Of a stretch of 64,000 nt of DNA, positions 20,075-46,460 are shown piece by piece; within the stretch, counting starts at the first letter, position 1; each line of letters starts with the position of its first letter. The DNA lies in NCBI RefSeq assembly GCF_029167375.1, contig NZ_JARFTP010000003.1, forward strand, positions 1 to 64,000, given 5' to 3'. The translations under genes and the position numbers were made by a program. A model generated the notes under the pieces. It did not search any database. It was not told the origin of the DNA and saw only the letters and a list, made by a program, of their open reading frames with translations. The stretch is from Tsukamurella sp. 8F (GTDB lineage Bacteria > Actinomycetota > Actinomycetes > Mycobacteriales > Mycobacteriaceae).

Positions 20075-20167
20075 ACGTCCGCAACACGCCTCTGTCAGCG
20101 CAGCGATCGCCATGTGAACGCTCGCGACGCCGACCGAGGCGTGTTCGGGAGGTGGGGCGCCTACCTC

Positions 20168-20173
20168 TAGGCT
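20168..20173 (+). promoter_or_regulatory. -10 element of leaderless Fic-like gene
   Basis: TAGGCT is 8 nt before the GTG start at 20182 and no ribosome binding site is present. Confidence 0.45.
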
Positions 20174-20181
20174 TGTGCACC

Positions 20182-21366: not shown

Positions 21367-22191
21367 CTACTGCGAGTCCCGATTCCGTTGCAGCAGAACA
21401 TATGTCACGGCGCCGGCAGCGGCAGCCGCAGCTGAAAGGCCCAATCCCGTGAGTACCGAAGTCCGCGAGGGCGTCGGGATGCGGTGTTTGAGCGGTGTGG
21501 GGTTGGAGAACGACAGCACGGGCCACCCGCGCTCACTCGCCTCGCGACGCAGCGGCCGGTCCGGGTTGACGGCGGTGGGGTGCCCGACCGCCGCGAGCAT
21601 CGGTACGTCGGTGATGGAGTCCGAGTAGGCGAAACACTGGTCGAGGTCGTACCCATTGCGCTCGGCGAGTTCGCGCATAGCCGTGACCTTGTTCTCGCCG
21701 AAACAGTAGAAGTCGAGCTCTCCCGTGTACTTGCCGTCGTCAACCGCCATCGTCGTGCCGATCGAGTAGTCCGCGCCCAGCAGATCACTGATCGGCCGCA
21801 CCATCTCCTCGCCGGAGGCAGACACGATCACCACGTCGTGCCCGCGGGTGTGATGACCGACGATGAGGTCTGCGGCCTCCTCGAAGACCAGCGGGTTCAC
21901 GATGTCGTGCAGCGTCTCGCGGACTATCGAGCGCACCTGTTCGACATCCCAGCCGGCGGTCATCTGCGTGAGATGGTCGCGCATGCGATCCATCTGGTCC
22001 TCATCGGCGGCGGTGAGCAGCATGAGGAACTGCGCATAGCTGGACTTGAGCACCGCGCGCCGGTTGATCAGGCCCTGCTCGAAGAACGGTTTCGAGAACG
22101 CCATGGTCGACGACTTGGCGATGATCGTCTTGTCGAGGTCGAAGAACGCGGCCACGCGACGTGCGGGGACTCCGATATCGGGGGCACTCAC
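21367..22191 (-). CDS. HAD-IB family hydrolase, SerB-like (Rv3661-like)
   Basis: A 274-residue haloacid-dehalogenase-superfamily phosphatase. Motif I is FFDLDKT, motif II is VIVSASGEE, and motif III/IV is CFAYSDSITDVPML. The subfamily is HAD-IB (phosphoserine-phosphatase-like). A C-terminal hydrophobic helix (VLTGLGLSAAAAAAGAVTYVLL) may anchor it to the membrane. The start was set at GTG 22191, which gives SAPDIG; the longer frame is not supported by a ribosome binding site. The substrate is unknown. Divergent from the ssd/tad genes, as in M. tuberculosis. Confidence 0.85.
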   Translation of the reverse strand: MSAPDIGVPARRVAAFFDLDKTIIAKSSTMAFSKPFFEQGLINRRAVLKSSYAQFLMLLTAADEDQMDRMRDHLTQMTAGWDVEQVRSIVRETLHDIVNPLVFEEAADLIVGHHTRGHDVVIVSASGEEMVRPISDLLGADYSIGTTMAVDDGKYTGELDFYCFGENKVTAMRELAERNGYDLDQCFAYSDSITDVPMLAAVGHPTAVNPDRPLRREASERGWPVLSFSNPTPLKHRIPTPSRTSVLTGLGLSAAAAAAGAVTYVLLQRNRDSQ

Positions 22192-22372
22192 GGCCCTCAC
22201 CCTACCGTCCGGTTGGGGGCCGGGACGGCAGCCGCGCATGATGCCATACGCAACCGATGGGCCGGGCCCGCCGCGAGCTGTTCATTCACAGCGGCGCGTA
22301 TGCCCGCCGTCCGGTACACAGGTCGGCTGCTGCCGGGGCGCTGCCGTCAGTGATCGGGTGCATGGTCGTGGC

Positions 22373-23461
22373 ATGCGAACGAGTGGGATCGGGGTAGCGG
22401 TGCGGCGGCCGGAACTGGCCGACGGTGTCGCACGTGCGGCGGCCGCAGCGGCGCGGCCCGTGGTCGATGTCGATCTGGGGCAGCCGCGCAGTCTGTGGGC
22501 GACGACATCGTGCCTGGTGGTCGACATCGATGCGGCGCGGGAGCTGATCGCTGCGGTCGGCGAGGTGCGGCTGCCGAGACGCGACGGGGTAGCCGTGGTG
22601 TGCGCGCACGCAGGGCTCGAGGAGTTGCGGCTCGGCATGCACCTCGGGGCGGCGCAGGTGTTCGCGCTGCCGGAGGATCTGCGTGCGTTGGCCCGATTCC
22701 TGTCGGGCCACGAGGCCGACGGTGCCGAGACCTCCCAGGTGGTGGCCGTGCTGGGTGGACACGGTGGGGCGGGTGCATCGCTGTTCGCTGCCGCGCTGGC
22801 CCTGGCGGCCCCGGCACGTGGCCTCAGTGTGCTGGCCGTCGACGCCGACCCGTGGGGTGGAGGTCTCGACCTACTGCTCGGCTGCGAGGACATGCCGGGT
22901 CTGCGGTGGCCGGATCTGTCGCTGCGCGGCGGCCAGGTGCCGTCCGGGGCACTGGTGGCCGCCCTGCCCGGCCGCGCCGACGAGCTCGCGGTGCTCTCGG
23001 CTGGACGTGGCGGCGCAGATATCGGCACAGAGGCCGTGCTCGCGGTCCTCGACGCCGGCCGCCGTAGCGTGGGGATCACTGTCGTAGACCTGCCCAGACG
23101 GGACGACGGTGTGACTGCGGCCTGCCTGGAGGTCGCGGACCTATGCGTTCTCGTCACGGCGGCCACGCTCCGCGGATGCGCTGCCAGCCGCGTCGTCGCC
23201 GACGCGCTCGGGACCCGTGCGCGAGCGCTGCGCCTCGTCGTCCGCGGCCCCGCACCGGGTGGCCTGCGAGCCGTGGAGGTCGAGCGGGCCGTCGGTGTGC
23301 CGGTCCTAGCGGCCATGCGTGCGCAGCCCGGGCTCGACGCCTCCGTCGACGGTGGCGGGCTCCGGCTGCGCAGGGGCTCGCCCCTGGCGGACGCCGCGGG
23401 ACGGGTTCTCGACGGTGTCCGCGGTCGCGCTCAGCGCTCTGGGGCGGGGGCAGTCGCATGA
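22373..23461 (+). CDS. ssd: CpaE/TadZ-like protein of the helicase/secretion neighbourhood (Ssd)
   Basis: A 362-residue protein of the TIGR03815 'helicase/secretion neighborhood CpaE-like' type, orthologous in position to Rv3660c (Ssd). An N-terminal receiver-like region is followed by a MinD/ParA-like ATPase region: VVAVLGGHGGAGASLFAAALA is a Walker-A-like loop in which the canonical lysine/threonine pair is replaced by A-S, and VLAVDADPWGGGLDLLLG follows. TadZ proteins localise Tad pilus machinery at the pole; Ssd has also been linked to septum control. It overlaps tadA by 4 nt (ATGA). Start ATG 22373 (weak ribosome binding site). Confidence 0.82.
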   Translation: MRTSGIGVAVRRPELADGVARAAAAAARPVVDVDLGQPRSLWATTSCLVVDIDAARELIAAVGEVRLPRRDGVAVVCAHAGLEELRLGMHLGAAQVFALPEDLRALARFLSGHEADGAETSQVVAVLGGHGGAGASLFAAALALAAPARGLSVLAVDADPWGGGLDLLLGCEDMPGLRWPDLSLRGGQVPSGALVAALPGRADELAVLSAGRGGADIGTEAVLAVLDAGRRSVGITVVDLPRRDDGVTAACLEVADLCVLVTAATLRGCAASRVVADALGTRARALRLVVRGPAPGGLRAVEVERAVGVPVLAAMRAQPGLDASVDGGGLRLRRGSPLADAAGRVLDGVRGRAQRSGAGAVA

Positions 23462-24456
23462 CCGGCGATCTGCTCTCCCGCGTCCGAGACCGGCTGGCGC
23501 TGCACCCCACGCGACTGACGCCGGAGGTGATGGCTGACGCGCTACGCGCGGAATGCGGTGGAGTCCTCGGTGATTCGGAGCTGCTCGACGGGCTCGCCTA
23601 CCTGGAGAAGGAGCTCGTTGGCGCTGGGCGGCTGGACCCGCTACTGGCGCGCCCGGACGTTGCAGACGTTCTGGTGGTGGGGCCGGACCGGGTATGGGTC
23701 GACCGCGGACGAGGGCTCGAACGCACGGACGTGCGGCTCGAGGATGATGCGGCGGTGCGTCGCCTGGCCACTCGGCTCGCCTTGACCGCGGGACGTCGGC
23801 TCGACGATGCTCAGCCCTGGGTCGACGGGCACCTGCCCGGCGCAGCTCGTTCCGGAACCGGGATACGGCTGCACGCGGTGCTCCCGCCGCTGGCGCAGAA
23901 CGGGACCTGCATCTCCCTGCGCGTCCTGCGCCCGGCGACTCAGACGCTCAGGTCGCTCACTGCGTCCGGGGCGGTCCCCGCCGAGGTCGCTGCACTGCTC
24001 GAGGGGATCGTGCGGGCGCGCCTCGCGTTCCTGGTCGTCGGCGGTACAGGGAGCGGGAAGACCACGCTGCTCAACGGCATGCTCGGCGAGGTCGCACCCG
24101 CCGAACGGATCGTCTGCGTGGAAGACGCACGGGAGCTGAATCCGGTTCATCCCCACGTGATCTCGCTGCTCGCCCGCGGCGCCAACGTGGAGGGCGCAAG
24201 GGAGGTCACCGTCCGCGACCTGGTGCGGCAGGCGCTCCGGATGCGACCGGACCGGATAGTGGTGGGGGAGGTCCGCGGCGCCGAGGTCATCGACCTGCTC
24301 ACCGCGCTCAACACGGGCCACGACGGCGGCGCCGGGACGGTACACGCCAACTCGCCCACGGAGGTGCCGGCAAGACTCGAGGCGCTCGCGGCGCTCGGCG
24401 GTATGACGCGGGCGGCATGGCATTCTCAGCTCGCCGCAGCGATCTTATCTGTATAG
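23458..24456 (+). pseudogene. tadA: Tad secretion ATPase TadA/CpaF, C-terminally truncated
   Basis: A 332-residue reading of a type II/IV secretion ATPase (Rv3659c-like, TIGR03819). Walker A is VVGGTGSGKTTLL, the Asp box is CVEDARELNP, Walker B is RPDRIVVGEVRGAE, and the His box is GHDGGAGTVHANS. The normal reading follows to WHSQLAAAI and then ends in four foreign residues and TAG at 24454-24456, where family members continue for several dozen residues. The break at about 24443 is the left junction of the accessory island. The ATPase core is intact but the C-terminal domain end and the downstream membrane partners are missing, so function is doubtful. Confidence 0.82.
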
Positions 24457-24529
24457 TGTCACCGCGTGTCTCAGACTGTCGCAGAGGACGAGGTGGGCGA
24501 GCCGTCATCGTCTGAGACGGGGTTATCTG
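24445..24529. repeat. Clustered short repeats at the left island junction
   Basis: GTCTCAGAC (24468-24476) and its exact reverse complement GTCTGAGAC (24510-24518) lie 33 bp apart, framed by TTATCTG at 24445-24451 and again at 24523-24529. GTCTCAG recurs at 24571. This looks like a recombinase or transposon end site. No matching structure was found at the right end beyond the shared 9-mer. Confidence 0.4.
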
Positions 24530-25108
24530 ATGTGTCAGACACCCTGGACGGTTCGTTATGAACTTGTTCTGTCTCAGTCAACGCGGCAACTGTTCAGCCG
24601 GGGGCATCGCCGCGCCCCCAAACTGCTCCGTGACATCCCCCGCGCAGGCGGCCCCTGCGGAGATGGTGGTTATAGCTGCGAAGCTCCGCGCTCGTACCGG
24701 TTGGGACGCCGAAACCTTCGTCACTGCAACGGCTTCCAAGACACTCGTCCGCCGCGTGCAGTCCCCTGCAGCAAGAAGCAACCGAGCACGAGAAGCGAAT
24801 CCTCAAGCATCTCGTGACCGCTGACATTCATCGGAGCGCCGCCCCCCGTCCGGCGGTTCAGTTCGGCCGTATAGGTGTTCCTACGCCAAGATCTGCACCG
24901 CGGGCCACGCCCAGGTCTCCACCCAACGCGGCGGAAGGGCCTTCGCTCCCTGGCTGAACCTATCAGCCCTCACATCAATTAGACGAACCAGCCGCGCAAT
25001 CGTTTCCCTTCAAACGTCGAGAAATCCACGAGGCCCGTGGTCGGATCGTCTGATATCATGTCGCAGCTACATCTCGGGGTATAGACAGAGGTAGAGGTAG
25101 GGGTTATT
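24457..25108. other. 652-bp stretch without a convincing gene
   Basis: This holds the junction repeats and short decayed reading frames. One frame (24558-24824) and an overlapping one (QQEATEHEKRILKHLVTADIH, about 24770-24835) look like fragments of former proteins but cannot be assigned. TATAGA at 25079-25084 may be the -10 box of the following gene, which is preceded by a GGTAGAGGTAGGGG purine run. Confidence 0.45.
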
Positions 25109-25921
25109 TTGTTACCGACAATCAACGAGTTTATCTACCCTGCGAGCCCGTCACGGATCAACGCTTACGAGATCCAGGAGAGTTCCGATCCACGGTATCG
25201 ATTCGATGTTTTTATAGCCTCGCCCGAATTGCCGATAATGCACGTCCAACGCAGCCTTCCCGGCGGTTTCATCAAGACGGGCGTTAGTCCTTCCGATCAG
25301 TATCAGGTCTGTCTCCGCTATTCAGGCCAATTTCCTGAGACACTGCCGGACTTGCTGGATCTCCTGAAGGATCGTCTTTGTCTGCCGACTGGCAACTGGG
25401 CGCCGCTGGACCTGGCTTTGGCTCTGGACTATTACAAGATTCCTCCAGCAGAAGATGGTGGAGAATGGAAGAATACTAACTCGGGCGAGCTGGTGTCTCG
25501 TGCGAAATATTGGGTATCGGATCCAGGTATGCAGCGCCTTTGTCGCGAGAAAATTGTCGAGAAGGTCGCAGATACGATTAGGCGGCACCCGATACTTAAC
25601 AGTGCTAGCCGCATAGTAAGTGTTCCAGGGTCGAAGGGGAATGGCAGCAGCGTCGGAGAGAGTATCGCGGCAGGAGTTGCCACACGTCTCGGGCGGCCGT
25701 TGATCTCGACGATTGGACCTGTCCGACCTGAGAGAAAAGGGGATCAAGCTGCATCGATAGCTGGTCTGTTCTCCGTCCCCGAGATGATCCACGGCAACTG
25801 CGTTATCGTGGACGACGTGTGGAGGTCCGGTGAGACTGCGGCCGAGGTCGGACGTGCGGCCCGAACGGCAGGAGCCAGCGCCGTCCACGCTGTAGTTGCT
25901 GCGAAGACGATGAGGCGTTGA
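25109..25921 (+). CDS. Phosphoribosyltransferase-fold protein, partner of DprA-like
   Basis: A 270-residue protein whose C-terminal half has a type I phosphoribosyltransferase fold. The PRPP-binding loop reads CVIVDDVWRSGETAAEVGRA (about residues 232-251), with the two acidic residues DD; upstream ISTIGPVRPERKGDQ could be the flexible loop. The N-terminal 130 residues are not recognised. It starts at TTG 25109 after a purine-rich stretch. Lower G+C than the backbone. One base separates it from the DprA-like gene, so they form a two-gene operon. The PRTase may act on a nucleotide, nucleobase or ribose-linked group; the reaction is unknown. Confidence 0.75.
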   Translation: MLPTINEFIYPASPSRINAYEIQESSDPRYRFDVFIASPELPIMHVQRSLPGGFIKTGVSPSDQYQVCLRYSGQFPETLPDLLDLLKDRLCLPTGNWAPLDLALALDYYKIPPAEDGGEWKNTNSGELVSRAKYWVSDPGMQRLCREKIVEKVADTIRRHPILNSASRIVSVPGSKGNGSSVGESIAAGVATRLGRPLISTIGPVRPERKGDQAASIAGLFSVPEMIHGNCVIVDDVWRSGETAAEVGRAARTAGASAVHAVVAAKTMRR

Positions 25922-25922
25922 C

Positions 25923-26774
25923 ATGACAACAACGGCTGAGACTCTACGTGCGCTCACGGCGTTCGAGCATTACGGTAGTCCTGCTAGGGCTGCTCGAGCA
26001 TTGGTCGACCCGGACCCGGCGCTGTTGCGAGACGCCTGGAAGGCTCTATCCGGCGAGTCGCGCCAATCCCTCAAGGCCGAAGCTGCAGACCTGGACGCCC
26101 GAGGAATCTACGCAGTTAACGCTGGAAGCTCACAATTTCCGGAAAGTCTCATGATCGGGACGCGCCCCGTCGTGCCGACTCTCTTCTGTCACGGCGATAT
26201 CGCATTATTGACGGCGCCCGGAGCAGGAATGTGTGGGTCCAGACGCGTCAGTGATTTGGGGCTTAGGGCTGCTCGCGCGTGCGGCGTAGAAGTAAGCGAA
26301 CGTGGACTAACGGTCGTCTCGGGGTATGCGAGAGGTGTCGATACTGCTACTCACCTGGCCGCGCTTGACAATGGTGGTCAGACGGTCATTGTCCTCGCGG
26401 AGGGTATCAATTCGTTCAAAGTTAAGTCTGAGTTCTCCCGGAGCTTCGATCCTGCGCGAGTTCTAGTCGTCTCCCAATTCCGCCCTACGCAACCGTGGGC
26501 AGCATACGCTGCGATGGCGAGAAATCACGTCATATTCGGTCTCGGCAAAGCTCTAGTAGTCATCGAAGCTGGTGATCGCGGGGGAACGTTGGCCGCCGGC
26601 CGCGACGCACTCAAGCGCGGCCGGCCGGTGTTCGCCCTGAACTTCGGTGCAGACACGCCGGTTGGCAATCGACTGTTGATAGACGCGGGAGCCCGCGCCA
26701 TCACCTCCCGCACAGAGCTCGGCCACGCGCTCGATCGGATACAGCCGGAGAGTCGGCAAGAGACTCTGCTGTAG
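25923..26774 (+). CDS. DprA/Smf-like Rossmann-fold protein
   Basis: A 283-residue protein of the DprA/LOG superfamily. The Rossmann nucleotide-binding elements are MCGSRRVSDLGLRAA (about residue 101), VVSGYARGVDTATHLAAL (around 136-153) and a late VVIEAGDRGGTLAAGRDALK. These match DprA, which loads RecA on incoming single-stranded DNA. The chromosomal dprA of actinobacteria lies near rnhB, not here, and this copy is paired with a PRTase inside an island. It lacks an obvious C-terminal winged-helix domain. Inference: a nucleic-acid-sensing or nucleotide-processing part of a defence module. Confidence 0.75.
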   Translation: MTTTAETLRALTAFEHYGSPARAARALVDPDPALLRDAWKALSGESRQSLKAEAADLDARGIYAVNAGSSQFPESLMIGTRPVVPTLFCHGDIALLTAPGAGMCGSRRVSDLGLRAARACGVEVSERGLTVVSGYARGVDTATHLAALDNGGQTVIVLAEGINSFKVKSEFSRSFDPARVLVVSQFRPTQPWAAYAAMARNHVIFGLGKALVVIEAGDRGGTLAAGRDALKRGRPVFALNFGADTPVGNRLLIDAGARAITSRTELGHALDRIQPESRQETLL

Positions 26775-26803
26775 GAGCAGCGCCGACGCGTGTCACTCCT
26801 CGC

Positions 26804-26869
26804 GGCCACTGACGCCAACCGTCGCGCCGCATGCGGAAACGCACCATCTGGGTCTGGCCGAACGAGACG
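26804..26869 (+). pseudogene. Collapsed remnant of a second nuclease-partner pair
   Basis: Bases 26804-26843 match the NucA/NucB nuclease gene at 28524-28563 (ATDANRRAACGNA), and bases 26842-26869 match the end of its partner gene at 29291-29318 (TIWVWPNET). About 730 bp that separate these segments in the intact pair are missing here, with a 2-base CA overlap at the joint. It is therefore a deletion remnant of a paralogous copy of the pair. Confidence 0.8.
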
Positions 26870-26943
26870 CTGGCCGGATTCCCCGGTCCGCGGTATCGCC
26901 GGACTGCCGCCGCGGATCTGCACCCGCGTGGTGCAGGGAGCCG

Positions 26944-27452
26944 GCCGCTGCACCCGTGGGCCCAAGGACTGGGCAGTCGTCGTCGTCACCGGCGCCGAGC
27001 TGCTGCGGTTCCTGTCCCGAACAGAGATCCGCCGAACCCTGCCAGTCGAACTGCAGGCCGAGATCGCCTTCGGATTCGAGCAGAGTCAGCGCCCGGCGGA
27101 TGAACTCGTCAGCCTCGCCCGAAGTGCGCTCGTCCAGGACGACATCTGGCAGGAGGACGCCGAACCCGAACTGGGAGACCTTCGCCGGGAACACACCCGC
27201 CAGCTCGACCCCGCCGCCGCCTAACTGGCCACCAGCGCCTCACGCGAGGTCCACGCCTGGGCCAAGGCGTGGCAACAGGACTGGGAGGGGGCGACTCGCG
27301 CCGCCGTGCAGGTAATGGAGGCCCTGCCGGGCGACGACCTAACGCCCGTACCGGGCGTTGTGGGCGTACCTCGGCAGCGCATGGTCGGAGCGCCACGGAT
27401 CGCTGTGAAGTGCGGCCTTTCCGGCCGAGAAGTTCGACCCACAATCGGATGA
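26944..27452 (+). pseudogene. Decayed hypothetical coding sequence
   Basis: After the nuclease remnant, a frame reads GPKDWAVVVVTGAELLRFLS...DLRREHTRQLDPAAA, hits TAA at 27222-27224, and continues in the same frame as LATSASREVHAWAKAWQQDW...VMEALPGDD up to TGA at 27450-27452. The composition (acidic, helical) looks protein-coding across the stop. No family recognised; no credible start. It may be a broken island gene interrupted by one nonsense codon. Confidence 0.45.
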
Positions 27453-27680
27453 ATGGGCACGGGTCTCGCAGCGATGGACCTCACTGCATGCTCGGCTGCC
27501 GGCCCGGCGGTCTCGCCGCGCCTGTCGTGCCGCGCTTCCGGCACGTGCGACATTCTGAGCATTTCGTCTGATTTCGGAATGATCGCCGTTATGTTTCTGT
27601 TTAGCACCAACATCAGGATATCGATCCGTCTCTTCGGACGGGTATCGAAGATCTTCTCCACCTGGTCATCCGTGGCCAGT

Positions 27681-27710
27681 GGCCGCAGTCTCGGACCCGC
27701 GACTGCGGCC
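27681..27710. terminator. Perfect 10-bp stem-loop before the nuclease gene
   Basis: GGCCGCAGTC and GACTGCGGCC pair exactly around a 10-nt loop, followed by CTTCATCTCC. It is 26 bp upstream of the nuclease start codon and could end upstream transcription or act as an element boundary. The rest of 27453-27735 shows no gene. Confidence 0.45.
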
Positions 27711-27735
27711 CTTCATCTCCTGAGAGGGCACGACG

Positions 27736-28761
27736 ATGACCCGGAAGACCCGATCCGCTCGGTGGCTTGGCGCCGCCGCGACAGCACTGCTGATTACGAC
27801 GGGAGGGATCGTCCCCGCCGCTGCAGCACCACCGTCTCCCTCCCCGACCCCACCCGCCGCGAAGAGCAAGAAGGCGACCACAAGAACCACCAAAGCCCCT
27901 GGCTCCAGAGGGGCTTTCGCGCTCCCGAACGCCGTCGGCTCATGCGGCGAGAACCGATTCACCAGCTGCGGCATCTTCAACGCGACGATCGACCAGTTCG
28001 CCGGGATCCCTGGAGGACCGTCAACGCTCATAGGCTCATGGCACATCGAGTTCCTGATGCGAATGACCTCCGCCGCAGACAGCGGCACCGTGACCGTCAA
28101 CGTCACCGCGGAGGTAACCGCGACCGGCACACCGGTCCCCGGGGCATGGCACCTGTACCTGAGCTACCTCGACAGCGACGCGCCCGGAGGTCAGTCGTTC
28201 AAGCAGTTCGACGTCGCTCTCGTGCCTGGCCTGGTCGCGAACGGCAGCGGCACGTTCACGCCCGCCGCGTACAATACGGCCCCGCCCCGCACACGGCTGG
28301 TCTATCGTTGGGACGACACGACCCCCGTACCCGGCGACAACGGAGTGGGAGCGACGACCTCAGGTCTGGAGGTTCGCTGCGACAACGTCGTTCGCGCCAC
28401 GGTCGGATGCGTCAATCCCAACTACCTTCCCACTGTGAACTTCCCGAACGCGCCCACCGTGACCAGTCACATCCGCGCCGCGCAGGCCCAGGGCAAGCCG
28501 TCGACGCTCACGAAGAACAGCCCGGCCACTGACGCCAATCGTCGTGCCGCGTGCGGAAACGCAGAAGCGGTCCTCGGTCCCAAGCCCAGCCCCGACAGCA
28601 CCTGCGATGAGTACCCCTTCGCATCGACCAGCGAAGGCGGCGCAGGTGCTTCGATCGCATGGGTACCCGCCGCGGAGAACAGCTCTCAAGGGGGCACCCT
28701 GGCAGGGATGACCGCCGCCAACCGTGTCATCGATGGAGACCGGTACGACGTCATCCCGTGA
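27736..28761 (+). CDS. Secreted protein with NucA/NucB-type nuclease domain
   Basis: A 341-residue exported protein. The signal peptide (RWLGAAATALLITTGGIVPAAAA, residues 9-31) is followed by a proline/lysine-rich linker, a middle domain of beta character (about 60-245), and a C-terminal NucA/NucB-like domain with DANRRAACGNA and CDEYPFASTSEGGAG, the active-site region of this DNase family (Pfam NucA/NucB). It would cut DNA outside the cell. It starts at ATG 27736 with CTGAGAGGG upstream. It is followed 35 bp later by a small cytosolic gene, as a toxin would be by an immunity or regulatory protein. The middle domain is not recognised. Confidence 0.78.
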   Translation: MTRKTRSARWLGAAATALLITTGGIVPAAAAPPSPSPTPPAAKSKKATTRTTKAPGSRGAFALPNAVGSCGENRFTSCGIFNATIDQFAGIPGGPSTLIGSWHIEFLMRMTSAADSGTVTVNVTAEVTATGTPVPGAWHLYLSYLDSDAPGGQSFKQFDVALVPGLVANGSGTFTPAAYNTAPPRTRLVYRWDDTTPVPGDNGVGATTSGLEVRCDNVVRATVGCVNPNYLPTVNFPNAPTVTSHIRAAQAQGKPSTLTKNSPATDANRRAACGNAEAVLGPKPSPDSTCDEYPFASTSEGGAGASIAWVPAAENSSQGGTLAGMTAANRVIDGDRYDVIP

Positions 28762-28796
28762 CGGCGGCAAGCCCCAACGACGAAGGGACAGCACAG

Positions 28797-29363
28797 ATGA
28801 TCCATACCCCCGTAACAGCACGCGGCCGCGTCAAGGTCACCTACGGCCAGTTTCTCATCACCGACGGAGATAGCGTCCTGGACGACCAGTTGAACGACCC
28901 CGCATCGATCCGGTCTGTCGCTGGATTCATCCAGGTTGCAACTGGATTCGTGCGCGTCAGCGTCAACACCGACACCCGGTTCGTCGGTGTCACGGTTCAC
29001 ATCCGCGACGGCGCAGACGACACCGACGTGACAGACGACTGCGAGGGCGAAGCCGAGTTCGACGTCGAGTTCCCCCGACCCGCAACGGTTGGCGGCCTCG
29101 ACGACATCGACGCTCCACCCGATCGCAGACTGGTGGACGGCGACCTGCGAAGCCTGTCAATACCGCCGGGGCGGTACCGCATGCGGGTCACCGGAACCGG
29201 GATGAATGCTGCACTCGCCGAACGAGACAGAGGTGAAATTGCTAACCCGCAGGATCAACCTACGGATCCTGATCTGCTAACTGAGCGGTTCACCATCTGG
29301 GTCTGGCCGAACGAGACGTCGGCCGCCACCGTGGTGCACAGGCAATACAAGCTCCCGGCGTAG
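28797..29363 (+). CDS. Hypothetical partner of the NucA/NucB protein
   Basis: A 188-residue protein beginning at ATG 28797 with CGAAGGGA upstream. No signal peptide or membrane helix. It is acidic and looks beta-rich (VKVTYGQFLITDGDSVLDDQ; RYRMRVTGTGMNAAL; TIWVWPNET). This resembles small 'competence protein ComJ/immunity-type' partners of NucA nucleases only in context and size; I do not recognise the family by sequence. The remnant at 26804-26869 contains the ends of both genes in the same order, which shows that the two genes have been inherited as a pair. Likely immunity or inhibitor protein (inference). Confidence 0.65.
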   Translation: MIHTPVTARGRVKVTYGQFLITDGDSVLDDQLNDPASIRSVAGFIQVATGFVRVSVNTDTRFVGVTVHIRDGADDTDVTDDCEGEAEFDVEFPRPATVGGLDDIDAPPDRRLVDGDLRSLSIPPGRYRMRVTGTGMNAALAERDRGEIANPQDQPTDPDLLTERFTIWVWPNETSAATVVHRQYKLPA

Positions 29364-29379
29364 AAGGGCACCGTCGTCA

Positions 29380-29430
29380 GACTCGGCGCCAGGACGGCCC
29401 CCTCATGTGGCGGCGGCCTGGCGCCGAGTC
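29380..29430 (+). terminator. Terminator of the nuclease operon
   Basis: A perfect 14-bp stem, GACTCGGCGCCAGG with CCTGGCGCCGAGTC, 17 bp after the partner gene. Confidence 0.7.
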
Positions 29431-29535
29431 AGCGGAGGGCGACCGGAGCTGGCCAAAGATGGACGGAACGGAGCTTTGCGTCGGTTTCACGGGCACTGAT
29501 CCTGTCCCGTGCTCGCTGGGCTCGGGCTCTGATCG

Positions 29536-29784
29536 ATGGAACCGGACCGTGTCCTGATGCGTCTAATTGATGTGGACAGGAACGACGAGGAGGCGACGGT
29601 CAACGCGGACGGCGGTGTCGGAGGTGAAGGTGATATCCAGGCATTGCCTGCTCATGTGGAGGCGTGGTTCGCGCAGGAGCGGGCCGCGAACCGCGCGGCG
29701 CGCGGTGAAGCTCGCCCGCCGGGACCGGACTGGCCGGTATGGGAGGCGGAGTTTGCTGCAGGCGGTGACCTAGGTGATCGGTGA
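29536..29784 (+). CDS. Small hypothetical protein
   Basis: An 82-residue acidic open frame (MEPDRVLMRLIDVDRNDEEATVNADG...). The C-terminal part HVEAWFAQERAANRAARGEARPPGPDWPVWEAEFAAGGD has a normal protein composition. There is no clear ribosome binding site and no family recognised. It faces the recombinase remnant and could be a small accessory gene or chance. Confidence 0.35.
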   Translation: MEPDRVLMRLIDVDRNDEEATVNADGGVGGEGDIQALPAHVEAWFAQERAANRAARGEARPPGPDWPVWEAEFAAGGDLGDR

Positions 29785-29793
29785 AGCGCTTGC

Positions 29794-31551
29794 TCACGGC
29801 GGGGTGAGGCGCTCGATCTCGGCGTGAGCGGCAGCGAGGGCCCGATCCTGCGCCTGCAGTTCTGCGCGTAGGCGGTGGATCTGTTCGTCTTTGTCGCGGA
29901 TGGTGCGGCGCAGGGCGTGGATGACGCTGTCGTCGGTGGACGTCGGTGCGGGGGGTGTAACTGGCGTACTAGGTGTGTTGCGTTGGGCGCGGATTCGGTC
30001 GGCGAGGTCCGGGTGCCGGTAGATGGTGGCACGGGATACTCCGGCCTTGGCTGCGACGGCGTTGATGTTGACGGGCTGCCCGGCCTTCTTCAAGGTGCGT
30101 CGTGCGGCGTCGATCCGCTTCCGGGTGTCTTCGGATCGCGGTGTCCCAGATAGCTGCACGACGTGGAACGGGACACCGTCGTTGAGTAGCTCGGTAGCGC
30201 GGGTGTGCCGCAGCCGGTGGGTCTGGGTGAACTTCAGCGGCTGGCCGGCGAAGTCGGTGAGGCCGTGGATCCGGTCGAGCTGCGCGAGGGAAGCACGGTA
30301 GGTGGCGTAGGGCCGGGGCTCGCGGCCGCGGAATTGATGCTTGACCCCGATGAACAGGTACTTCGAGTCGACGCCGGGGAAGGTGTCTGTCAGCCATTGC
30401 TGTTGTTCTCTGATGACGTTGACCACCGCCTGCTCGACGAGGATCGTCGGCACGACGCCATCGACCTTGGTCTGCTGGTATCGCAGCTTCGCGACGAAGG
30501 TGCCGTCGTCGACTGCGCCCGGCGGCCTCTCGGCGCCGGGGATCGCCTCGATAGGGTCGTGGTCGAGCGTCAGGATCTCCGATGCGCGGCGTCCCGTCAT
30601 TGCCTACAACAATCACGCCCGGGCAGCCTGTGGGTCGCCGAGTCCTGCCACGTAGGAGCGGCGGCCGTCCGGGTGGACGATCTCGACCATTTCGTCCCGC
30701 GGTGCGGTGAGCATGTCGAGGTAGGACAGCATCCGCTGCAGGTCGGTGGTGGCGTACCAGGTCAGCTCCCGACTGCGCGTTGAGTTGCGGGTGTGTGCGG
30801 ACGGGCCCCACAGGCGGGTGTGCGCCGGGGTCAGCTCGTTCCACCGGTCGTCACCGGTTGCATCGGCGGCCTCGAGACCGTGGTCGGTCACGAAGGTGTA
30901 GAAGGTCTGTGCCTGTGACTGGATCTGCCCGACCATGTAGTCGGTGAGCCGGCCGCCGTCGCGGCCGACATCGGGACGACGCAAGTAGGCGGTGTACTCC
31001 GTGAATACCGCCCGCAACCGCCGTGGGTCCTCGGTGATCCGTGGGTCGTCGCAGCCTATGCCGGTCAGGAACGGTCCGAGGTGCCGGGCGGCCGTGCGGC
31101 ACCGATCGGATGCGGTCGACCAGCGCAGCATCTCCGTGGTCAGTGCTGTCCGCAGATAGAACCGCATTCCTTCGCGCAGCCAGACCGGGGTGATCCGGTC
31201 GAATCGGAGGCCGGTCTCGAGCATCGGTTCGTGCTCGCGGCGCGGGATCCGCGGGTCGATCCGTAGGTCCCAGGTGTCGTGTACCCACCAGGGCAGGTCC
31301 CGGCACCGCACACTCAACAGCAGGTGCAGCTGGTGGATGTTGCGCTCGATGTGGTGCCGCGACGAGCGGCCAGGCAGCTGCCCGTTGCGGCGTTCGAACC
31401 CGACGACCGCGTGACGGACCACCTCGCTGGGAACGAGGTCGGTGATGCTCTCGCGTAGCGATGCGTAAAGAGGCGCGCACTGACGCCTGAGATCGGTGCT
31501 GAGCGCCCAACACGCGCTCACCGGAGGTCGTGCACGCGGCGAATCGGTCAC
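29794..31551 (-). pseudogene. Tyrosine recombinase, broken by two stops and fused to a DUF6262/TnpC-like tail
   Basis: The frame reads from GTG 31551 as a tyrosine recombinase N-terminal domain, stops at TGA 30615-30613, then two codons later TAG 30606-30604, and continues in the same frame. TGG to TGA and CAG to TAG would restore it. The catalytic domain then shows TGRRASEIL (first arginine) and THRLRHTRATELL (HxxR), but breaks off after FHVVQL, before the third histidine and the catalytic tyrosine. It joins in frame to RKRIDAARRTLKKAGQPVNINAVAAKAGVSRATIYRHPDL plus a coiled coil, the DUF6262/Tn554 TnpC-like protein normally encoded downstream. The element can no longer move with this enzyme. 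Confidence 0.8.
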
Positions 31552-31583
31552 CGCCTGTCGGGACTGCCTGGGATACTTTCTGC

Positions 31584-32567
31584 GTGGCCGTGAAGATTAA
31601 GCCCCCTGAGGCGAACACCGAATTCAGTCTCGCGAACTGGTCTTACAACCTCGACGCCTCGCGAGTCGACCCGTGGCACGAGGACATGGGTTTGTTCCAC
31701 TACACCGATATTGGAGGCTTGTGGGGGATACTTTCAAGCAGTCAAATCTGGGCCACTCATACCTACTACCTAAACGACTCGTCCGAGATCGAGTTTGGCC
31801 TATCCTGGATCAATGAATTGCTCAAGAACGGCGAGAAGGAGGCCGCGAAACTGGTCGACAAGGAGGCTGACGAGGAATGGGCCAGCACGGCGTATGTCCT
31901 GCACAAGCTGTACCAGTTCGTGGGTGCTGCAGCATTAACCTCGCGCGACACCTTGCTTCGGGACAGCGCTCCGTTTGTCTCATGTCTGTCGTGTGCAAGC
32001 GACTCCCTGACACAGTGGCAGGCATATGGCAACCGAGGCGGGGGTTACTCAATTCAGTTCGACGGACAAGCGTTTGAAGACTCGATCCAACAGGTGGATG
32101 AGAGTGGTGGCATGCTAACAGACCAGCCAACGATCACTGCAGCGCTTGTTGAGTATCAGACATGGAACCTGCAAAAACGTGTAGACGAAGCGGTGAACGA
32201 TTTTCTCCAGGGAACTCGAGCAGGGAAGGAAGGCGATCTAACCTACGATCAATCCCCGTCTCTTCGAGCGTTTCTTAGGCGACTAGTCGAGATATCAATG
32301 CTCTTGAAGCACCAATCCTTCTGGCCGGAGCGGGAACGACGTATCTGTATATCTGGCGGTGCAGAGACCTTCTATTCACAGTCCGCATTAGGGTTGGTTC
32401 CGCGAATGCGGATCGGTTTCGATCCCAAGTCTGTGCGTGAGGTTATGGTTGGTCCGGGCCCGCATGAAGAGGCCCGAAAATACTCGATCGAGAGATTTTT
32501 GGCCGGTCAACCTGACCTGAGTCACGTCGCGGTGACCACATCCGAGGTCCCTTACAGGGCGCCCTGA
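31584..32567 (+). CDS. DUF2971 family protein
   Basis: A 327-residue protein starting at GTG 31584 (an earlier start at 31530 is possible). The family pattern is clear: LFHYTDIGGLWGILSSSQIWATHTYYLNDSSEIEFG near the N-terminus, SCLSCASDSLTQWQAYGNRGGGYSIQFD in the middle, and KSVREVMVGPGP near the end. DUF2971 proteins are widespread on islands and have no proven biochemical role. Clearly lower G+C than the backbone, which points to acquisition. Convergent with the next small gene. Confidence 0.8.
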   Translation: MAVKIKPPEANTEFSLANWSYNLDASRVDPWHEDMGLFHYTDIGGLWGILSSSQIWATHTYYLNDSSEIEFGLSWINELLKNGEKEAAKLVDKEADEEWASTAYVLHKLYQFVGAAALTSRDTLLRDSAPFVSCLSCASDSLTQWQAYGNRGGGYSIQFDGQAFEDSIQQVDESGGMLTDQPTITAALVEYQTWNLQKRVDEAVNDFLQGTRAGKEGDLTYDQSPSLRAFLRRLVEISMLLKHQSFWPERERRICISGGAETFYSQSALGLVPRMRIGFDPKSVREVMVGPGPHEEARKYSIERFLAGQPDLSHVAVTTSEVPYRAP

Positions 32568-32626
32568 GCCGGGTCTACTCCACCGCCCCCGCATGAGAGC
32601 GGAGGCGATGTTCCCGTTGGGTGTGG

Positions 32627-32864
32627 TCAGGCTTCGTCGGTCGCGTCGTCGGCCTTGGTGCGGCTTGGCCTCCTGCTCCTTGAGGTAGGCCGCGTACTGG
32701 CGCTTGAGCGCGGTCAAGTCCTTGGAGTCGAACGCGTAGCGGGCACGTCCTTCCTCGGCACGCTTGTCGTAGCCGACAGCGCGAAGGAACTTGCGAAACG
32801 TCTTGGCGTCGGGAGTCCCGACCTTCTCGGCAGCCTCGATGGTGGCGAAGTTGGTGGTAGCCAC
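32627..32864 (-). pseudogene. Small HTH-type actinobacterial protein with a frameshift
   Basis: From ATG 32864 the frame reads MATTNFATIEAAEKVGTPD, KTFRKFLRAVGYDK, RYAFDSKDLTALKRQYAAYLKEQEAKP, a helix-turn-helix-like layout common in actinophage and plasmid small proteins. After EAKPH the open frame continues in an arginine-rich sequence that overlaps the DUF2971 3' end. One base fewer near 32657-32660 would instead give KADDATDEA and a stop at 32627-32629, the expected acidic end. I infer a one-base insertion. Confidence 0.55.
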
Positions 32865-33134
32865 GGTGATTGGACCTTTCGGTGCGGTCGTGAGCGTTGC
32901 TCACGGTTGAACGTGAGGACCATAAGAGACCGGGGCCGGCTGTCCAAGGTCGTAGGCGAAAGAGCCACGTGAGTGCTGTGACCAGCAACGACACGTGCAG
33001 CACGTCCACACGGGCACCCGAGCGCAATGCTGAGCGCCCGACTGCGCAATACGCGCACATCGACGTGCGCACACTTACGCGAGGCGCACGGGACGACTTG
33101 GGAACCGATCGCCAGGCCGGTGCGTCCAACTGGT

Positions 33135-33326
33135 GTGGACGATGAACAGCTCGACCAACTCCTTGAGGACTACTGGCTGGCGTGGGTGACTAGCCAAGCG
33201 GTGGACGTGCCGCCCGAGGTGGACGAGCGCATCATTGCGACGCTGCGCTCGTTTCCTTTAGAACCGGCACAACGTAGACTTCAATCCCGCGCGCCGCGAG
33301 AGACCTCACCTGACGCCCCAAATTGA
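33135..33326 (+). CDS. Small hypothetical protein, possibly truncated
   Basis: From GTG 33135 the frame reads VDDEQLDQLLEDYWLAWVTSQAVDVPPEVDERIIATLRSFP, which looks like a real acidic helical protein, then runs into bases that also encode the end of the convergent TIGR04141 gene. The last 20 residues are probably not original. No family recognised. Confidence 0.35.
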   Translation: MDDEQLDQLLEDYWLAWVTSQAVDVPPEVDERIIATLRSFPLEPAQRRLQSRAPRETSPDAPN

Positions 33327-34878
33327 CACGAGTGAAAGTGAAAAGATTGTCGGCGCTGAGGGGTGTCTTTTCGCGCGCTAATACAATCACCACATTTTTG
33401 GGCTTCACGGGGTAGGTATTGCCGTCTCCGCCCTTCTTCTTTATTTTGGCGCGTAGCTCCTTCTTGGCTTGGTCGTCGTAAGTGAGTGTGTCGGTGGAGA
33501 CTAACGCCTGTGCGATCAAATGGCTTGCTGGCGCAGACGAATGAACATGCTTGACGTGGATGAACGTTCCACCAGGAAGCATCACGTCACAAGCCTCGAT
33601 GCGCCCCCTTTTGCCGGGGCCGGATACCAAGTCCTTATCCAGGCACAGCCCTTTGAGGTGGAGGGCTAGCTCTTCGTTATAGGCGGCTTCGTCTACGCCG
33701 GAACGCCAGACCTGAAGGTCTGATATCGGTGCGTCCTTCTCGAAAATCTCATGGGTTCGTCGACCTACCGAGTCGGCGTACGTCTGGTCCATAATATACC
33801 AAGTTCCGCTGTGCAGGAAGTAGCGCTTCCCCTCCTTCTCCGTCTCGTAGGTCAGCCACTTTCTGAGTGGCAAGCGTGCACTAGTGAGGGTGTTCGGGTC
33901 GGTGCTTTCATAGAGGAATACGGCGAGTTTGGCAAGCATGATCGGCCACATATTTCGCTCGTACTTTTTCAGTGGCGCGATGATGTCTTCGAACGACGGC
34001 AGACCGTCAGTGACGCCACGGCCTCCTGCTCCAGTAATTTTATGAGCTTGAGCAATTCCGAACTCGTCCAATGTCTCGTGCGGCCAAGACAATCCGAGTC
34101 GATATGCCTGCGGATCATCTGATGCGATGCAGTCGAGGAGCTCTTCGTCGAGTTCCTCGATGAGATCCTTGCTCTTGATTCGAACCAACCGTTCTAGGTC
34201 TGCGAGTTCGTCGCTAGCAGGCGGAGAAGAAAGAATGCTTTTGATCCTGCTGATATTGCCTAAGAATCCTTTCGGCTTGCACGCTAGGGGCATGCTCAGT
34301 GCATCAGCACCCTTGACGGTAACGAATTTTCCATCGCCGATTCCCGGCACTTGCCCGCTGGCAACCACCCTGCTTGCCACCTCGCCGATATCTTCGAAGC
34401 CGAAGCTCCGAAGTGGCGCGCCAGCGGGAATCGATGACCTGTCCGTCTTCGCGCGTTCGTCGAGCGATGTCTTGGTTATGGACTGAAGGCTCATTGGGTT
34501 CGCGCACCGAATAGCGACACGCTGCCCAAACCCGTTGTCCACAAAACGCTGGTCCAGCAACTGGAACCCCATGCCGAATGAGAGCGCCCACGCAACAGTC
34601 TCGCCGTCGTCGGTCCCGTCATCAGGGATGAGCAGGACCGCGGCAGGAACCGAGTTCTTCAGCGTTATTGAGGTCCCGGTCAATTCGGCGAGCGTGCTTC
34701 CCCACTTGACAGACGACTCAGGAGTGCTCCCCCAGTACAGAAGCCCGGGGGTTCCGTCGATCTCAACATGCTCTTGCGTGAACTCTGAGTACTTCTCTCG
34801 GATCGCAGCTTCGAGGGACGGGAGCCCGACTAGCCTGTAGAGCGACACACGTGACTCTGAACTTCGTTTCCGTGCCAT
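33232..34878 (-). CDS. TIGR04141 / DUF6119 sporadically distributed protein
   Basis: A 548-residue protein starting at ATG 34878 with GAGGAA upstream. The family is recognised from VSLYRLVGLPSLEAAIREKY at the N-terminus, GDGKFVTVKGADALSMPL in the middle, and GTFIHVKHVHSSAPASHLIAQALVS toward the C-terminus. TIGR04141 was defined as a sporadically distributed family of unknown function; its members are large, single-gene and typical of islands. No membrane segments. Lower G+C than the backbone. A role in defence is a guess from context. Confidence 0.78.
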   Translation of the reverse strand: MARKRSSESRVSLYRLVGLPSLEAAIREKYSEFTQEHVEIDGTPGLLYWGSTPESSVKWGSTLAELTGTSITLKNSVPAAVLLIPDDGTDDGETVAWALSFGMGFQLLDQRFVDNGFGQRVAIRCANPMSLQSITKTSLDERAKTDRSSIPAGAPLRSFGFEDIGEVASRVVASGQVPGIGDGKFVTVKGADALSMPLACKPKGFLGNISRIKSILSSPPASDELADLERLVRIKSKDLIEELDEELLDCIASDDPQAYRLGLSWPHETLDEFGIAQAHKITGAGGRGVTDGLPSFEDIIAPLKKYERNMWPIMLAKLAVFLYESTDPNTLTSARLPLRKWLTYETEKEGKRYFLHSGTWYIMDQTYADSVGRRTHEIFEKDAPISDLQVWRSGVDEAAYNEELALHLKGLCLDKDLVSGPGKRGRIEACDVMLPGGTFIHVKHVHSSAPASHLIAQALVSTDTLTYDDQAKKELRAKIKKKGGDGNTYPVKPKNVVIVLAREKTPLSADNLFTFTRVNLGRQVRSLAARGIEVYVVPVLKETSAASQ

Positions 34879-34982
34879 CGGTTCCTCCCTCGATCGCCCC
34901 GCTTTCACGCAGCATACGAGAATGCGGTGAGCGGCGGGGGCGAAGCTGCGTGTCTCGATTGATAGGGGTGTAAACGCGCACG

Positions 34983-35114
34983 TTGGGATACGCGATCGGC
35001 ACCATCGCGGCGGCGGCGTTCGGGGCCGTCCTCTACACGGTCGTCACCGGAGACGACATAGTCTCCGGACTGTCGTCGATCATCGCGAAGGCACTGAACA
35101 CGTCCACGGGATAG
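34983..35114 (+). pseudogene. Flp-type pilin (DUF4244), 5'-truncated
   Basis: The last 43 codons of a Rv3656c-like pilin: GYAIGTIAAAAFGAVLYTVV, then TGDDIVSGLSSIIAKALNTSTG. Homologues have about 20-25 residues before YAIGTIA, including the glycine/glutamate processing site (STVEYAIG); here TAA stands four codons upstream and GLY replaces the glutamate. A TTG at 34983 is the only possible start. The cut marks the right border of the island. Confidence 0.8.
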
Positions 35115-35116
35115 GG

Positions 35117-35317
35117 GCGCGGCTGCACGCCCGCGGCGACGGTGAGCGGGTGGCTGCGGTCGTCTCGGCGGTCGCGCCGCCAGGCGCGCGCTTCGAGACG
35201 TCCGAGAGCGGCGAAACCGTGACCGTCCGGGTGGAGACGTCCGTCCCGCTCCTACCAGGCCTGACGCTGAGCGCGTCGGCGGTCGCGGCCATGGAGCCTG
35301 GAGCCGGCGATGGCTGA
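35117..35317 (+). pseudogene. TadE-like pseudopilin, N-terminal half deleted
   Basis: Starting directly after the pilin stop, a different frame reads ARLHARGDGERVAAVVSAVAPPGARF...RVETSVPLLPGLTLSASAVAAMEPGAGDG and stops at 35315-35317. This is the C-terminal half of a Rv3655c-like TadE protein. The start codon, the membrane helix and the rest of the N-terminal half are missing, so a deletion of roughly 150-200 bp fused it to the pilin end. Confidence 0.8.
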
Positions 35318-35606
35318 TCGCCTGCGCTCGCTCGTGCGGGCCGACGACGGGGTCGCGACGGTGTTGTGCGCGCGACACCGGGCGCAGGCGGCGGCGGACC
35401 TTTCTGCGCTTGCCGCCGCGGCGTCCGTGATCGACCCCGAGGGGGCCTGCGGGGCGGCCTCGACCATCGCGGTGGCGAACGGCGGCGAAATGGCGTCGTG
35501 CACCGTCGACGGACTGGACGCCGTTGTCGTAGTGCACGTGCCCGCCGCCTTCGCCCTGTTCGTGGCGGGCGCGGCGACCGCATCGGCCCGCGCGGGCCCG
35601 CGGTGA
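35310..35606 (+). pseudogene. TadE/G-like secretion-neighbourhood protein lacking its membrane segment
   Basis: A 98-residue frame of the TIGR03816 'helicase/secretion neighborhood TadE-like' type (Rv3654c). It reads RADDGVATVL, then directly CARHRAQAAADLSALAAAAS. Family members have a 20-30-residue hydrophobic helix between VATVL and the ARHRAQAAADL motif. It is missing here in frame, leaving a soluble stub. The rest (ACGAASTIAVANGGEMASCTVDGLDAVVVVHV) is normal. It overlaps the TadE remnant by 8 nt. Confidence 0.72.
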
Positions 35607-35670
35607 CGGCGACTGTGGCCCGCTCGCCGAACCCGCTGCACTGTGCACGGCATTCGGGCACAGTGGGCGC

Positions 35671-36033
35671 GTGGCATACGACGAGGCGTTCGCGGAGCGG
35701 ATCCGGGACCTGTTGGGTGGCGAGCCGCTGATCACCGAGAAGCGGATGTTCGGCGGCCTCGCGTTCCTGGTGGGTGGCAACATGGCGGTCGCGGTCGGTC
35801 AGGGGCTGCTGGCACGCATGGAACCTGATCTCGCCGATCGACTCTCGCAGGGTGAGCACGTCAGCACTGCGATCATGGGTGGTCGGTCCATGCGCGGCTG
35901 GCTCCGCATCGCCCCCGAGGGGGTGGCCACCGACGAGGACCTGCGCGCGTGGGTCGACCGATCGGTCGCGTTCTGCCGCGCGCTACCCGTCAAGGACCGC
36001 ATCGTCGGTACGCCGATCGGCCGCGCGGACTGA
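35671..36033 (+). CDS. TfoX N-terminal domain protein
   Basis: A 120-residue protein consisting of a TfoX/Sxy N-terminal domain only: EKRMFGGLAFLVGGNMAVAV is the family core, and RIAPEGVATDEDLRAWVDRSVAFCRALP closes it. In gammaproteobacteria Sxy/TfoX activates competence genes, but single-domain actinobacterial proteins have no established role. GTG start at 35671. Confidence 0.8.
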   Translation: MAYDEAFAERIRDLLGGEPLITEKRMFGGLAFLVGGNMAVAVGQGLLARMEPDLADRLSQGEHVSTAIMGGRSMRGWLRIAPEGVATDEDLRAWVDRSVAFCRALPVKDRIVGTPIGRAD

Positions 36034-36088
36034 TGCCCGCGAAGCCCTGCGCAACGGCCCCGACCCAGGCGCAGGCAGTATGGCGCTT

Positions 36089-36694
36089 ATGCCGTGCATC
36101 AAGATCTGTGGGCTGAGCACCCCCGGCACCGTCCAGGCCGCGGTCGACCAGGGGGTCGACGCGGTCGGTTTCGTCTTCGCGCCGGGTAGCCCGCGCACCG
36201 TGTCGCCGGAAGAGGCGGCTGCGCTCACCGCCCTGGTCCCTCCGGAGGTCGAGACCGTCGGTGTGTTCCGCGACCAACCGATCGACGAAGTGCTCATGGC
36301 GGCAAGGGAATCAGGTGTGACCACCGTCCAGCTGCACGGTTCCGAGCCGGCGCGGGACCTGGACGAACTCGCCGCATCGGGCATGCGCACGTTGCGGGCG
36401 GTGTCGGCGGCCCGGTACACGGAATGGCCGCACGAATGGCCGCGGGACCAGCGCCTCCTGATAGACGCCGTCGCCCCCGGATCCGGGAAGCGTTTCGCAG
36501 CAGTGGACCTGCCGTCGCCACCCGCTGGGTTCTGGCTGCTGGCCGGCGGCCTGGACGCGACGAACGTAGGGGAGCTCCTGCGCATGCACCGTCCGTCGGG
36601 AGTGGACGTGTCCAGCGGTGTCGAGGCCTCGCGCGGGGTCAAGGGCATCGATCTGATGGCCGGATTCGTCCGCGCCGTCCGCGCGGCGGTCTAG
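36089..36694 (+). CDS. trpF: Phosphoribosylanthranilate isomerase
   Basis: A 201-residue (beta/alpha)8-barrel enzyme of tryptophan synthesis that isomerises phosphoribosylanthranilate to CdRP. The catalytic cysteine is in IKICGLSTP (residue 6) and the catalytic aspartate in LLIDAVAPGSGKRF; VQLHGSEP, LAGGLDATNV and GVDVSSGVEASRGVKG complete the family pattern. I prefer ATG 36089 to ATG 36080, since the latter lies inside the probable -10 sequence (CAGTAT, 36076-36081). Most Mycobacteriales lack trpF and use bifunctional PriA. No other trp genes are nearby. Confidence 0.88.
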   Translation: MPCIKICGLSTPGTVQAAVDQGVDAVGFVFAPGSPRTVSPEEAAALTALVPPEVETVGVFRDQPIDEVLMAARESGVTTVQLHGSEPARDLDELAASGMRTLRAVSAARYTEWPHEWPRDQRLLIDAVAPGSGKRFAAVDLPSPPAGFWLLAGGLDATNVGELLRMHRPSGVDVSSGVEASRGVKGIDLMAGFVRAVRAAV

Positions 36695-36709
36695 TTGGGC
36701 GTGGCGACA

Positions 36710-46387: not shown

Positions 46388-46460
46388 GCCGCCTTAGCTC
46401 AGTCGGTAGAGCAGCTCACTCGTAATGAGCAGGTCGCGGGTTCGATTCCCGTGGGCGGCT
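46388..46460 (+). tRNA. tRNA-Thr (anticodon CGU)
   Basis: A 73-nt cloverleaf. Acceptor GCCGCCT pairs with GGGCGGC; D arm GCTCAGTCGGTAGAGC; anticodon stem GCTCA/TGAGC with loop CTCGTAA, anticodon CGT, reading ACG threonine codons; T arm GCGGGTTCGATTCCCGT. CCA is not encoded. The position next to delta-prime matches M. tuberculosis. Confidence 0.96.

Follow-up and report, generated by a model that had tools for sequence, protein, structure and literature searches.

A tadA-targeting transposon and an flp-targeting element very probably fused within the tad locus of Tsukamurella sp. 8F

The staphylococcal transposon Tn554 targets the gene radC. In the sections of PMC10214605 available to us, Tn554 is described as target-specific, leaving a 6-bp footprint and making no target duplication; the rule given there for strand-biased circularizing elements (SEs) and the relatives of Tn554 is that the six bases of the target stay on the left and six bases of the donor site go to the right. 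Tn554-related transposons of Actinobacteria have been described by Van Houdt et al. 2012 (PMC3414803, also available in part), where they encode a long tyrosine recombinase (611-828 aa), an ordinary one and a TnpC-like protein. Here, we describe an island in the tad locus of Tsukamurella sp. 8F, in a stretch of 64,000 nucleotides (hereafter the window; NZ_JARFTP010000003.1, positions 1 to 64,000) that is part of contig C23 of a 4.68-Mb, 70-contig draft genome rated 99.96% complete. This island very probably consists of the left part of a tadA-targeting, Tn554-related transposon fused to part of an flp-targeting element, a deletion between the two having taken tadB and tadC.

The first-pass annotation had placed an accessory island at 24444-34982, which is correct to within a few bases. 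Comparison with the tadA of relatives shows that similarity ends at base 24444, with foreign DNA (TTATCTGTATAG) directly after it, and flp similarity restarts at the TA of 34989-34990. Both flanking genes are therefore broken, as had been claimed. Between 24445 and 34988 the foreign DNA is continuous, and no host sequence was recognised in it. Its mixed character, also pointed out earlier, is seen in 500-base steps (G+C of 0.53-0.68 inside the island against 0.60-0.76 in the flanks read) and in genes lying on both strands. The supposed removal of tadBC agrees with the absence of any match to the tadB/tadC family (T2SSF) in the whole 4.68-Mb genome, and a second tad locus carrying these genes is rejected on the same ground. 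Two T2SSF matches were found in each of 14 of the 15 other Tsukamurella genomes compared (coded G001-G015; 16 genomes in all with that of the window). The exception, G007, is an assembly of 890 contigs, broken around the locus and also without a tadA match. The arrangement is not common to the genus, and an ancestral origin is rejected since tadA runs unbroken into tadB in nine of the 15 relatives (G001, G002, G003, G006, G009, G011, G012, G014 and G015). A tRNA attachment site is rejected as well, the sole tRNA found in the window being at 46388.

The tadA sites were compared by a DNA search of the 16 genomes with window positions 20000-39000 and by reading the junctions. In five of the 15 relatives (G004, G005, G008, G010 and G013, of which G008 is T. 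sp. 1534 and G010 is T. sputi HKU70), tadA is broken at the same base as in the window. Together with the uninterrupted sites of the sister genomes, which support an insertion, this repeated filling agrees with the earlier suggestion of a recurrent landing spot. In the five genomes and in the window, the left junction reads GC(C/G/T)TTC, then TTATCTGTA, and the fixed insertion point lies after the tadA codons A-A-[F/V/I] and before Q. At the other end, the tadA tail restarts in the five genomes as GATAA, six variable bases and CAGGTGG (CAAGTGG in G013). The elements measure 15193, 42812, 29916, 39092 and 35083 bp in G004, G005, G008, G010 and G013, respectively. A target duplication had been suggested as a sign to look for; none was seen at the tadA element, which has instead six extra bases at its far end. 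The elements of the relatives thus combine a fixed target site, besides which secondary sites exist, with a one-sided six-base footprint. The motif TTATCTG occurs just twice on both strands of the 64-kb window, at the left edge of the element and 78 bp inside; the subterminal copy (Table 1) is a possible recombinase binding site.

TnpA and TnpB (both with a Phage_integrase domain) and TnpC are all encoded by the tadA elements of G004, G005, G008, G010 and G013, and this three-gene set matches that of the actinobacterial group, which argues for a Tn554-related transposon. The right-end module of the G004 element encodes a 263-aa protein (without Pfam match), an HTH/ImmA-like protein (Peptidase_M78) and tyrosine recombinases of 415 and 826 aa, the longer one with its recombinase domain at the C-terminus, followed by a DUF6262-like TnpC. 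The window copy is a remnant rather than an intact transposon: tnpA and the right end are absent, and tnpB and tnpC are broken. The best match to the G004 TnpA in the genome of the window covers 50 residues (E 4e-4), so that no close tnpA is left.

At the right edge, the comparison is with T. sputi HKU70 (G010), in which flp is split at the TA by an element with a full serine integrase (domains Resolvase, Recombinase and Zn_ribbon_recom), i.e. a large serine recombinase beside one attachment site. The TA core is found at both ends of this element and at one end in the window, and the arm at the other end of the G010 element, when inverted, makes the right edge of the window island at the same flp TA. 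The arm pattern (Table 1) occurs in two of the 16 genomes, once in the window and twice in G010, where the second copy (L081) retains just about 73 integrase residues. The arm and L081 suggest that the right edge belongs to an element of the serine-integrase type whose integrase side is missing. A serine integrase on contig C13 of the same genome (55% identical, residues 1-245) was considered as the missing integrase and rejected, no GTGTAAAC arm being present in the 15 kb read there. Because the TA is palindromic and, in the part of PMC3642061 accessible to us, the central dinucleotide alone sets the orientation in Bxb1, such a core would permit both insertion orientations. No phage structural gene was recognised among the few genes of the G010 flp element that were scanned. 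A third type of element, with a terminase gene and another serine integrase, occupies a different flp position in G009, with an 8-bp shared core (GTGGTCAC). It is a prophage-like element of about 12 kb (L076, 2316-14277) lying inside flp, with GTGGTCAC at both of its edges. Together with the tadA transposon and the G010-type element, this makes three systems, each with its own site, within about 2 kb of the tad locus.

T. sputi HKU70 carries the tadA and flp elements together, one per site, and tadB and tadC read through between them; this double occupancy would correspond to the precursor state. In such a genome, a deletion starting within the first element and ending within the second would give the structure of the window, where the fusion point is bracketed by the end of tnpB similarity and the start of L081 similarity (Table 1). 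Positions 31470-33238 are 93% like L081, in which this segment sits between the start of a serine integrase and an arm of the same type. We propose that the Tn554-related transposon would have inserted first, near the 3' end of tadA, with the six bases of the target staying on the left and the six bases from the left of the donor arriving on the right. An element like the serine-integrase one of T. sputi would then have inserted at the flp TA, in the opposite orientation. The deletion would have removed the right part of the first element (tnpA and the right end), the tadA tail, tadB, tadC and the start of flp, as well as the integrase side of the second element. The window would thereby keep the left end, the broken tnpB and the tnpC remnant of the first element and the integrase-far part of the second, and tnpB, tnpC, tadE and the tadG-like gene would have decayed afterwards. 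We infer this order of events, and that the deletion was a single one.

The first-pass annotation had proposed an insertion with deletion, and both of these stand. A single insertion does not, as the evidence indicates two, with a deletion between them afterwards. One island that deleted tadBC on landing would account for foreign DNA in which no host sequence interrupts the stretch from edge to edge, but the edges stem from two distinct recombination systems, and in relatives either type occupies its site with no deletion (tadA in five genomes, flp in G010), which argues for two insertions and leaves a single event only a slim chance. An import of the fused and deleted locus, formed in another lineage and acquired whole by homologous recombination, has a slimmer chance still: the flanking genes are common to the genus, so that recombination across them is possible, but the arrangement is present in none of the 15 relatives, and an import would change the place of the events, not their nature. 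An assembly misjoin between mobile elements is the least probable explanation, although misjoins typically arise at repeated elements and the assembly is a draft of 70 contigs, because tadB and tadC are absent from an almost complete genome, tadE and the tadG-like gene have decayed independently and no close second tnpA copy was found in this genome.

Several points weigh against a fusion of two elements across a deletion. Both parent elements are known through relatives alone, and no integrase piece of the flp element was found in the island. The tnpB and tnpC of the window resemble the tadA copies of Tsukamurella less than they do those of L082, where a tadA junction was not found. In addition, the L081 integrase is cut close to where the window similarity begins, so that 31470-33238 may be a separate cassette and not simply a piece of the second element. 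Finally, the evidence comes from assembled genomes, those compared being of other species. If the two elements did fuse in this way, unrelated elements at neighbouring sites can end in the loss of the genes between them, and the doubly occupied state is visible in T. sputi.

Compared with G012, the tadE and tadG-like genes of the window have both lost their hydrophobic helix (Table 1). The tad locus therefore looks dead, and the strain would be without a working Tad system. No stops interrupt tadB, tadE or the tadG-like gene in any of 14 relatives that were compared, nor tadC in 13 of them (it is in two reading frames in G013); flp is split in two, G009 and G010. Where tadA is split in a relative, the other tad genes are thus mostly kept, and the worn-down locus is found in the window alone. 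The helix loss in both minor-pilin-like genes (35117-35606) could result from chance decay or from the removal of harmful unassembled membrane segments.

We then compared the six-base footprints. Eleven tadA right ends gave 10 different six-mers (ACGGGG, ATCTCC, GGAATC, ATGCGC, AACTCC, CACGTG, CTGGTT, ACGTCG, GGCCGC and CGAGCG), ACGTCG being common to M. septicum and M. peregrinum. The tadA left flank starts with GC, which none of the 11 footprints does. The secondary sites are represented by two copies, both with footprints read: GCCATC in T. spumae (G011) and GCCTTC for a second copy in G013. The exact comparison with empty sites covers the G013 copy, for which G013 itself, G002, G005, G011 and G015 have identical empty sites; those of G003 and G010 are diverged. 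Subtracting the identical empty sites from the filled one leaves the element plus exactly GCCTTC. The element in the tadA of G005 has GCCTTC as its left flank too, so that a tadA is the most likely source of the second G013 copy. In T. spumae, the left end of the secondary element was looked for and not found. The target in G013 is a repeat with a tyrosine-recombinase gene, of which 571 bases are identical in five Tsukamurella genomes (L165, L166, L168, L169 and L179); it could serve as a vehicle for the tadA transposon. More generally, the tad locus of Mycobacteriales may be a docking platform, where a Tn554-related family homes on tadA and cycles via mobile vehicles between the tadA genes of different species. 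Under such cycling, the two secondary copies would carry tadA-like six-mers because they left a tadA, and no tadA footprint would resemble the tadA left flank because those copies came from non-tadA donors. We consider the chances of this cycling to be evenly balanced; if real, it would spread metal-resistance and defence cargo and repeatedly disable Tad pili.

A TnpA scan of named genomes identified 10 loci, six of them outside Tsukamurella and outside the G007 contig. One of these six is in Speluncibacter jeojiensis (L096), and five (L097-L101) are from Mycolicibacterium or close kin. Reading the junctions showed the tadA left one in four (L096, L097, L098 and L101) and the right one (GATAA, six bases, CAGGT) in all six, the tadA tail being detected by tblastn in L100 alone and judged from the reading Q-V-x-x-H-V in the other five. 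The full junction pattern was found in 9 of 401 genomes of the family, from three genera (six Tsukamurella including the window, Speluncibacter and two of a third genus) and always in tadA, vs. 1 of 401 for a reversed-pattern control. A narrower pattern was found in 7 of the 401 genomes, with its control again at 1. The right end of the G421 element was looked for and not found. A record titled Acidobacteriaceae bacterium (L093, CAJCHX010000321.1) encodes a TnpA 91% identical to that of Tsukamurella, and its title looks wrong.

Every aligned block listed for the G005, G010 and G013 elements shows at least 99.8% identity, although some cargo was gained or lost among the three. The element and the 2540 bp of flank that were compared are 100% identical between G005 and the 'plasmid 27' sequence of T. 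tyrosinosolvens NCTC13231 (L159, NZ_LR134469.1), whereas the tad flanks of G010 and G013 are only 81.4% and 81.6% identical to L159. This difference points to recent transfer between Tsukamurella species, i.e. to metal-resistance islands that moved recently and broke a pilus gene. Present in L159 are ssd, a shortened TadA, the element, two T2SSF genes, DUF4244, TadE and a gene of the Rv3654c family, and its annotated cargo includes merA, a multicopper oxidase and metal transporters. The plasmid label is that of the depositor and is doubtful; as L159 carries a whole tad locus, it may be chromosomal. Among eight G005 and G010 proteins scanned, the cargo of the other tadA elements includes a copper oxidase, a heavy-metal ATPase, a pyridine-nucleotide reductase, MMPL and MFS.

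The cargo that the strain keeps is a toxin-antitoxin-like gene pair, one gene with a nuclease domain and two of unknown role (Table 1). As in the PsyrTA and ShosTA defence pairs, a DprA-like gene adjoins a phosphoribosyltransferase-domain gene, and the pair resembles a putative toxin-antitoxin of this kind, although the toxin candidate matches only the C-terminal positions of the PsyrT model. Two adjoining short stretches at 26803-26876 recur at 28523-28563 within the NucA/NucB gene and at 29291-29325 within the next open reading frame (ORF), and probably form a shrunken duplicate of this gene pair. Flanking the DUF2971 block (31478-33042) is a direct repeat of 34 bases (74% alike), and another T. 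sputi element has a block 93% identical to it; the DUF2971 block may move as a cassette.

Table 1. Features of the tad locus and of its island, in window coordinates
Feature	Position	Strand	Evidence
ssd (CpaE/TadZ-like), head of tad locus	22046..23461	+	TIGR03815, 282.6 bits; ORF as listed, true start uncertain
tadA 5' part, open reading frame, last ~60 codons cut off	23458..24444	+	TIGR03819, 481 bits; intact tadA of nine relatives
Left terminus TTATCTGTA of Tn554-related, tadA-targeting element	24445..24453	+	Identical bases and position in five Tsukamurella, Speluncibacter and Mycolicibacterium
Subterminal TTATCTG repeat, 78 bp inside left end	24523..24529	+	78-80 bp spacing in 11/11 left ends (not all independent, several near-identical)
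Phosphoribosyltransferase-domain protein, like PsyrT C-terminal part	25109..25921	+	PADLOC PsyrT positions 534-685 of 689, E 5.9e-11
DprA-like protein, PsyrA/ShosA-like antitoxin candidate	25923..26774	+	Pfam DNA_processg_A 1.5e-40; PADLOC PsyrA 3.4e-45, ShosA 3.9e-35
NucA/NucB nuclease-domain protein	27736..28761	+	PF14040, E 1.1e-20
tnpC (DUF6262) remnant fused to broken tnpB	29797..30108	-	PF19776 E 4.3e-6, slightly below curated cut-off; tnpC of relatives 30-51% identical
tnpB remnant, both ends lost, two in-frame stops	30153..31452	-	70% to L082 tnpB over 437 residues; L067 tnpB also matches
Probable fusion point of the two elements, ~30-base precision	31453..31480	.	tnpB similarity ends at 31452; 93% similarity to L081 starts at 31470
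DUF2971 protein, second-element cargo	31530..32567	+	PF11185 E 1.5e-6, 29.9 bits, cut-off 22; 93% DNA identity to L081
DUF6119/TIGR04141 protein, second-element cargo	33232..34908	-	DUF6119 3.1e-102; TIGR04141 2.9e-92
Attachment-site arm of flp-targeting element, ending at flp TA	34968..34990	+	GTGTAAACN7TTGGGATA
flp 3' part, start including leader region missing	34989..35114	+	84% to residues 21-64 of the 64-residue G012 flp
tadE remnant, without first 43 residues of the 108-residue query, including hydrophobic helix	35117..35302	+	Comparison with G012
Rv3654c-like (tadG-like) gene, 22-residue in-frame loss over hydrophobic helix	35310..35606	+	Comparison with G012

Among known systems, the closest to the flp element are mycobacteriophage serine integrases, e.g. 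that of Severus, which is 55% identical to the G010 integrase over 91% of its length. Phages such as Severus belong to cluster A. The G010 element differs from these in having flp as its target, and the words tad/tadA and pilin/pilus are absent from the Mycobacterium prophage papers searched. The tadA element shares with the actinobacterial group of PMC3414803 a long and an ordinary tyrosine recombinase (here 826 and 415 aa) and a TnpC-like protein (here a DUF6262 protein). It differs in that tadA is not named as a target in the accessible text of that source (0 occurrences), and the Tsukamurella copies, set against that group, have the HTH/ImmA-like and 263-aa proteins before tnpA; the window copy differs further as a remnant without tnpA. 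In the open library of full texts, of which parts were available, no link of these elements to tadA or flp as a target was found, and the co-mentions of Tn554 and tadA are staphylococcal as judged by title only. Within this literature, the transposon group is already known and tadA as its target appears to be new, so that the group gains a preferred insertion site. With Staphylococcus Tn554, as far as the available sections of PMC10214605 describe it, the tadA element shares target specificity, a 6-bp footprint and the lack of target duplication; hosts and cargo differ. The SEs described in the same sections own IntA, Tfp, IntB and Srap and have gammaproteobacterial hosts; no Tfp counterpart was found in the tadA element, where no search for one was made. 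In both the SEs and the tadA element, six bases next to the donor site on its left are copied to the right side of the new one, and the matched empty and filled sites of Tsukamurella show this six-base rule outside the hosts listed in the accessible part of PMC10214605.

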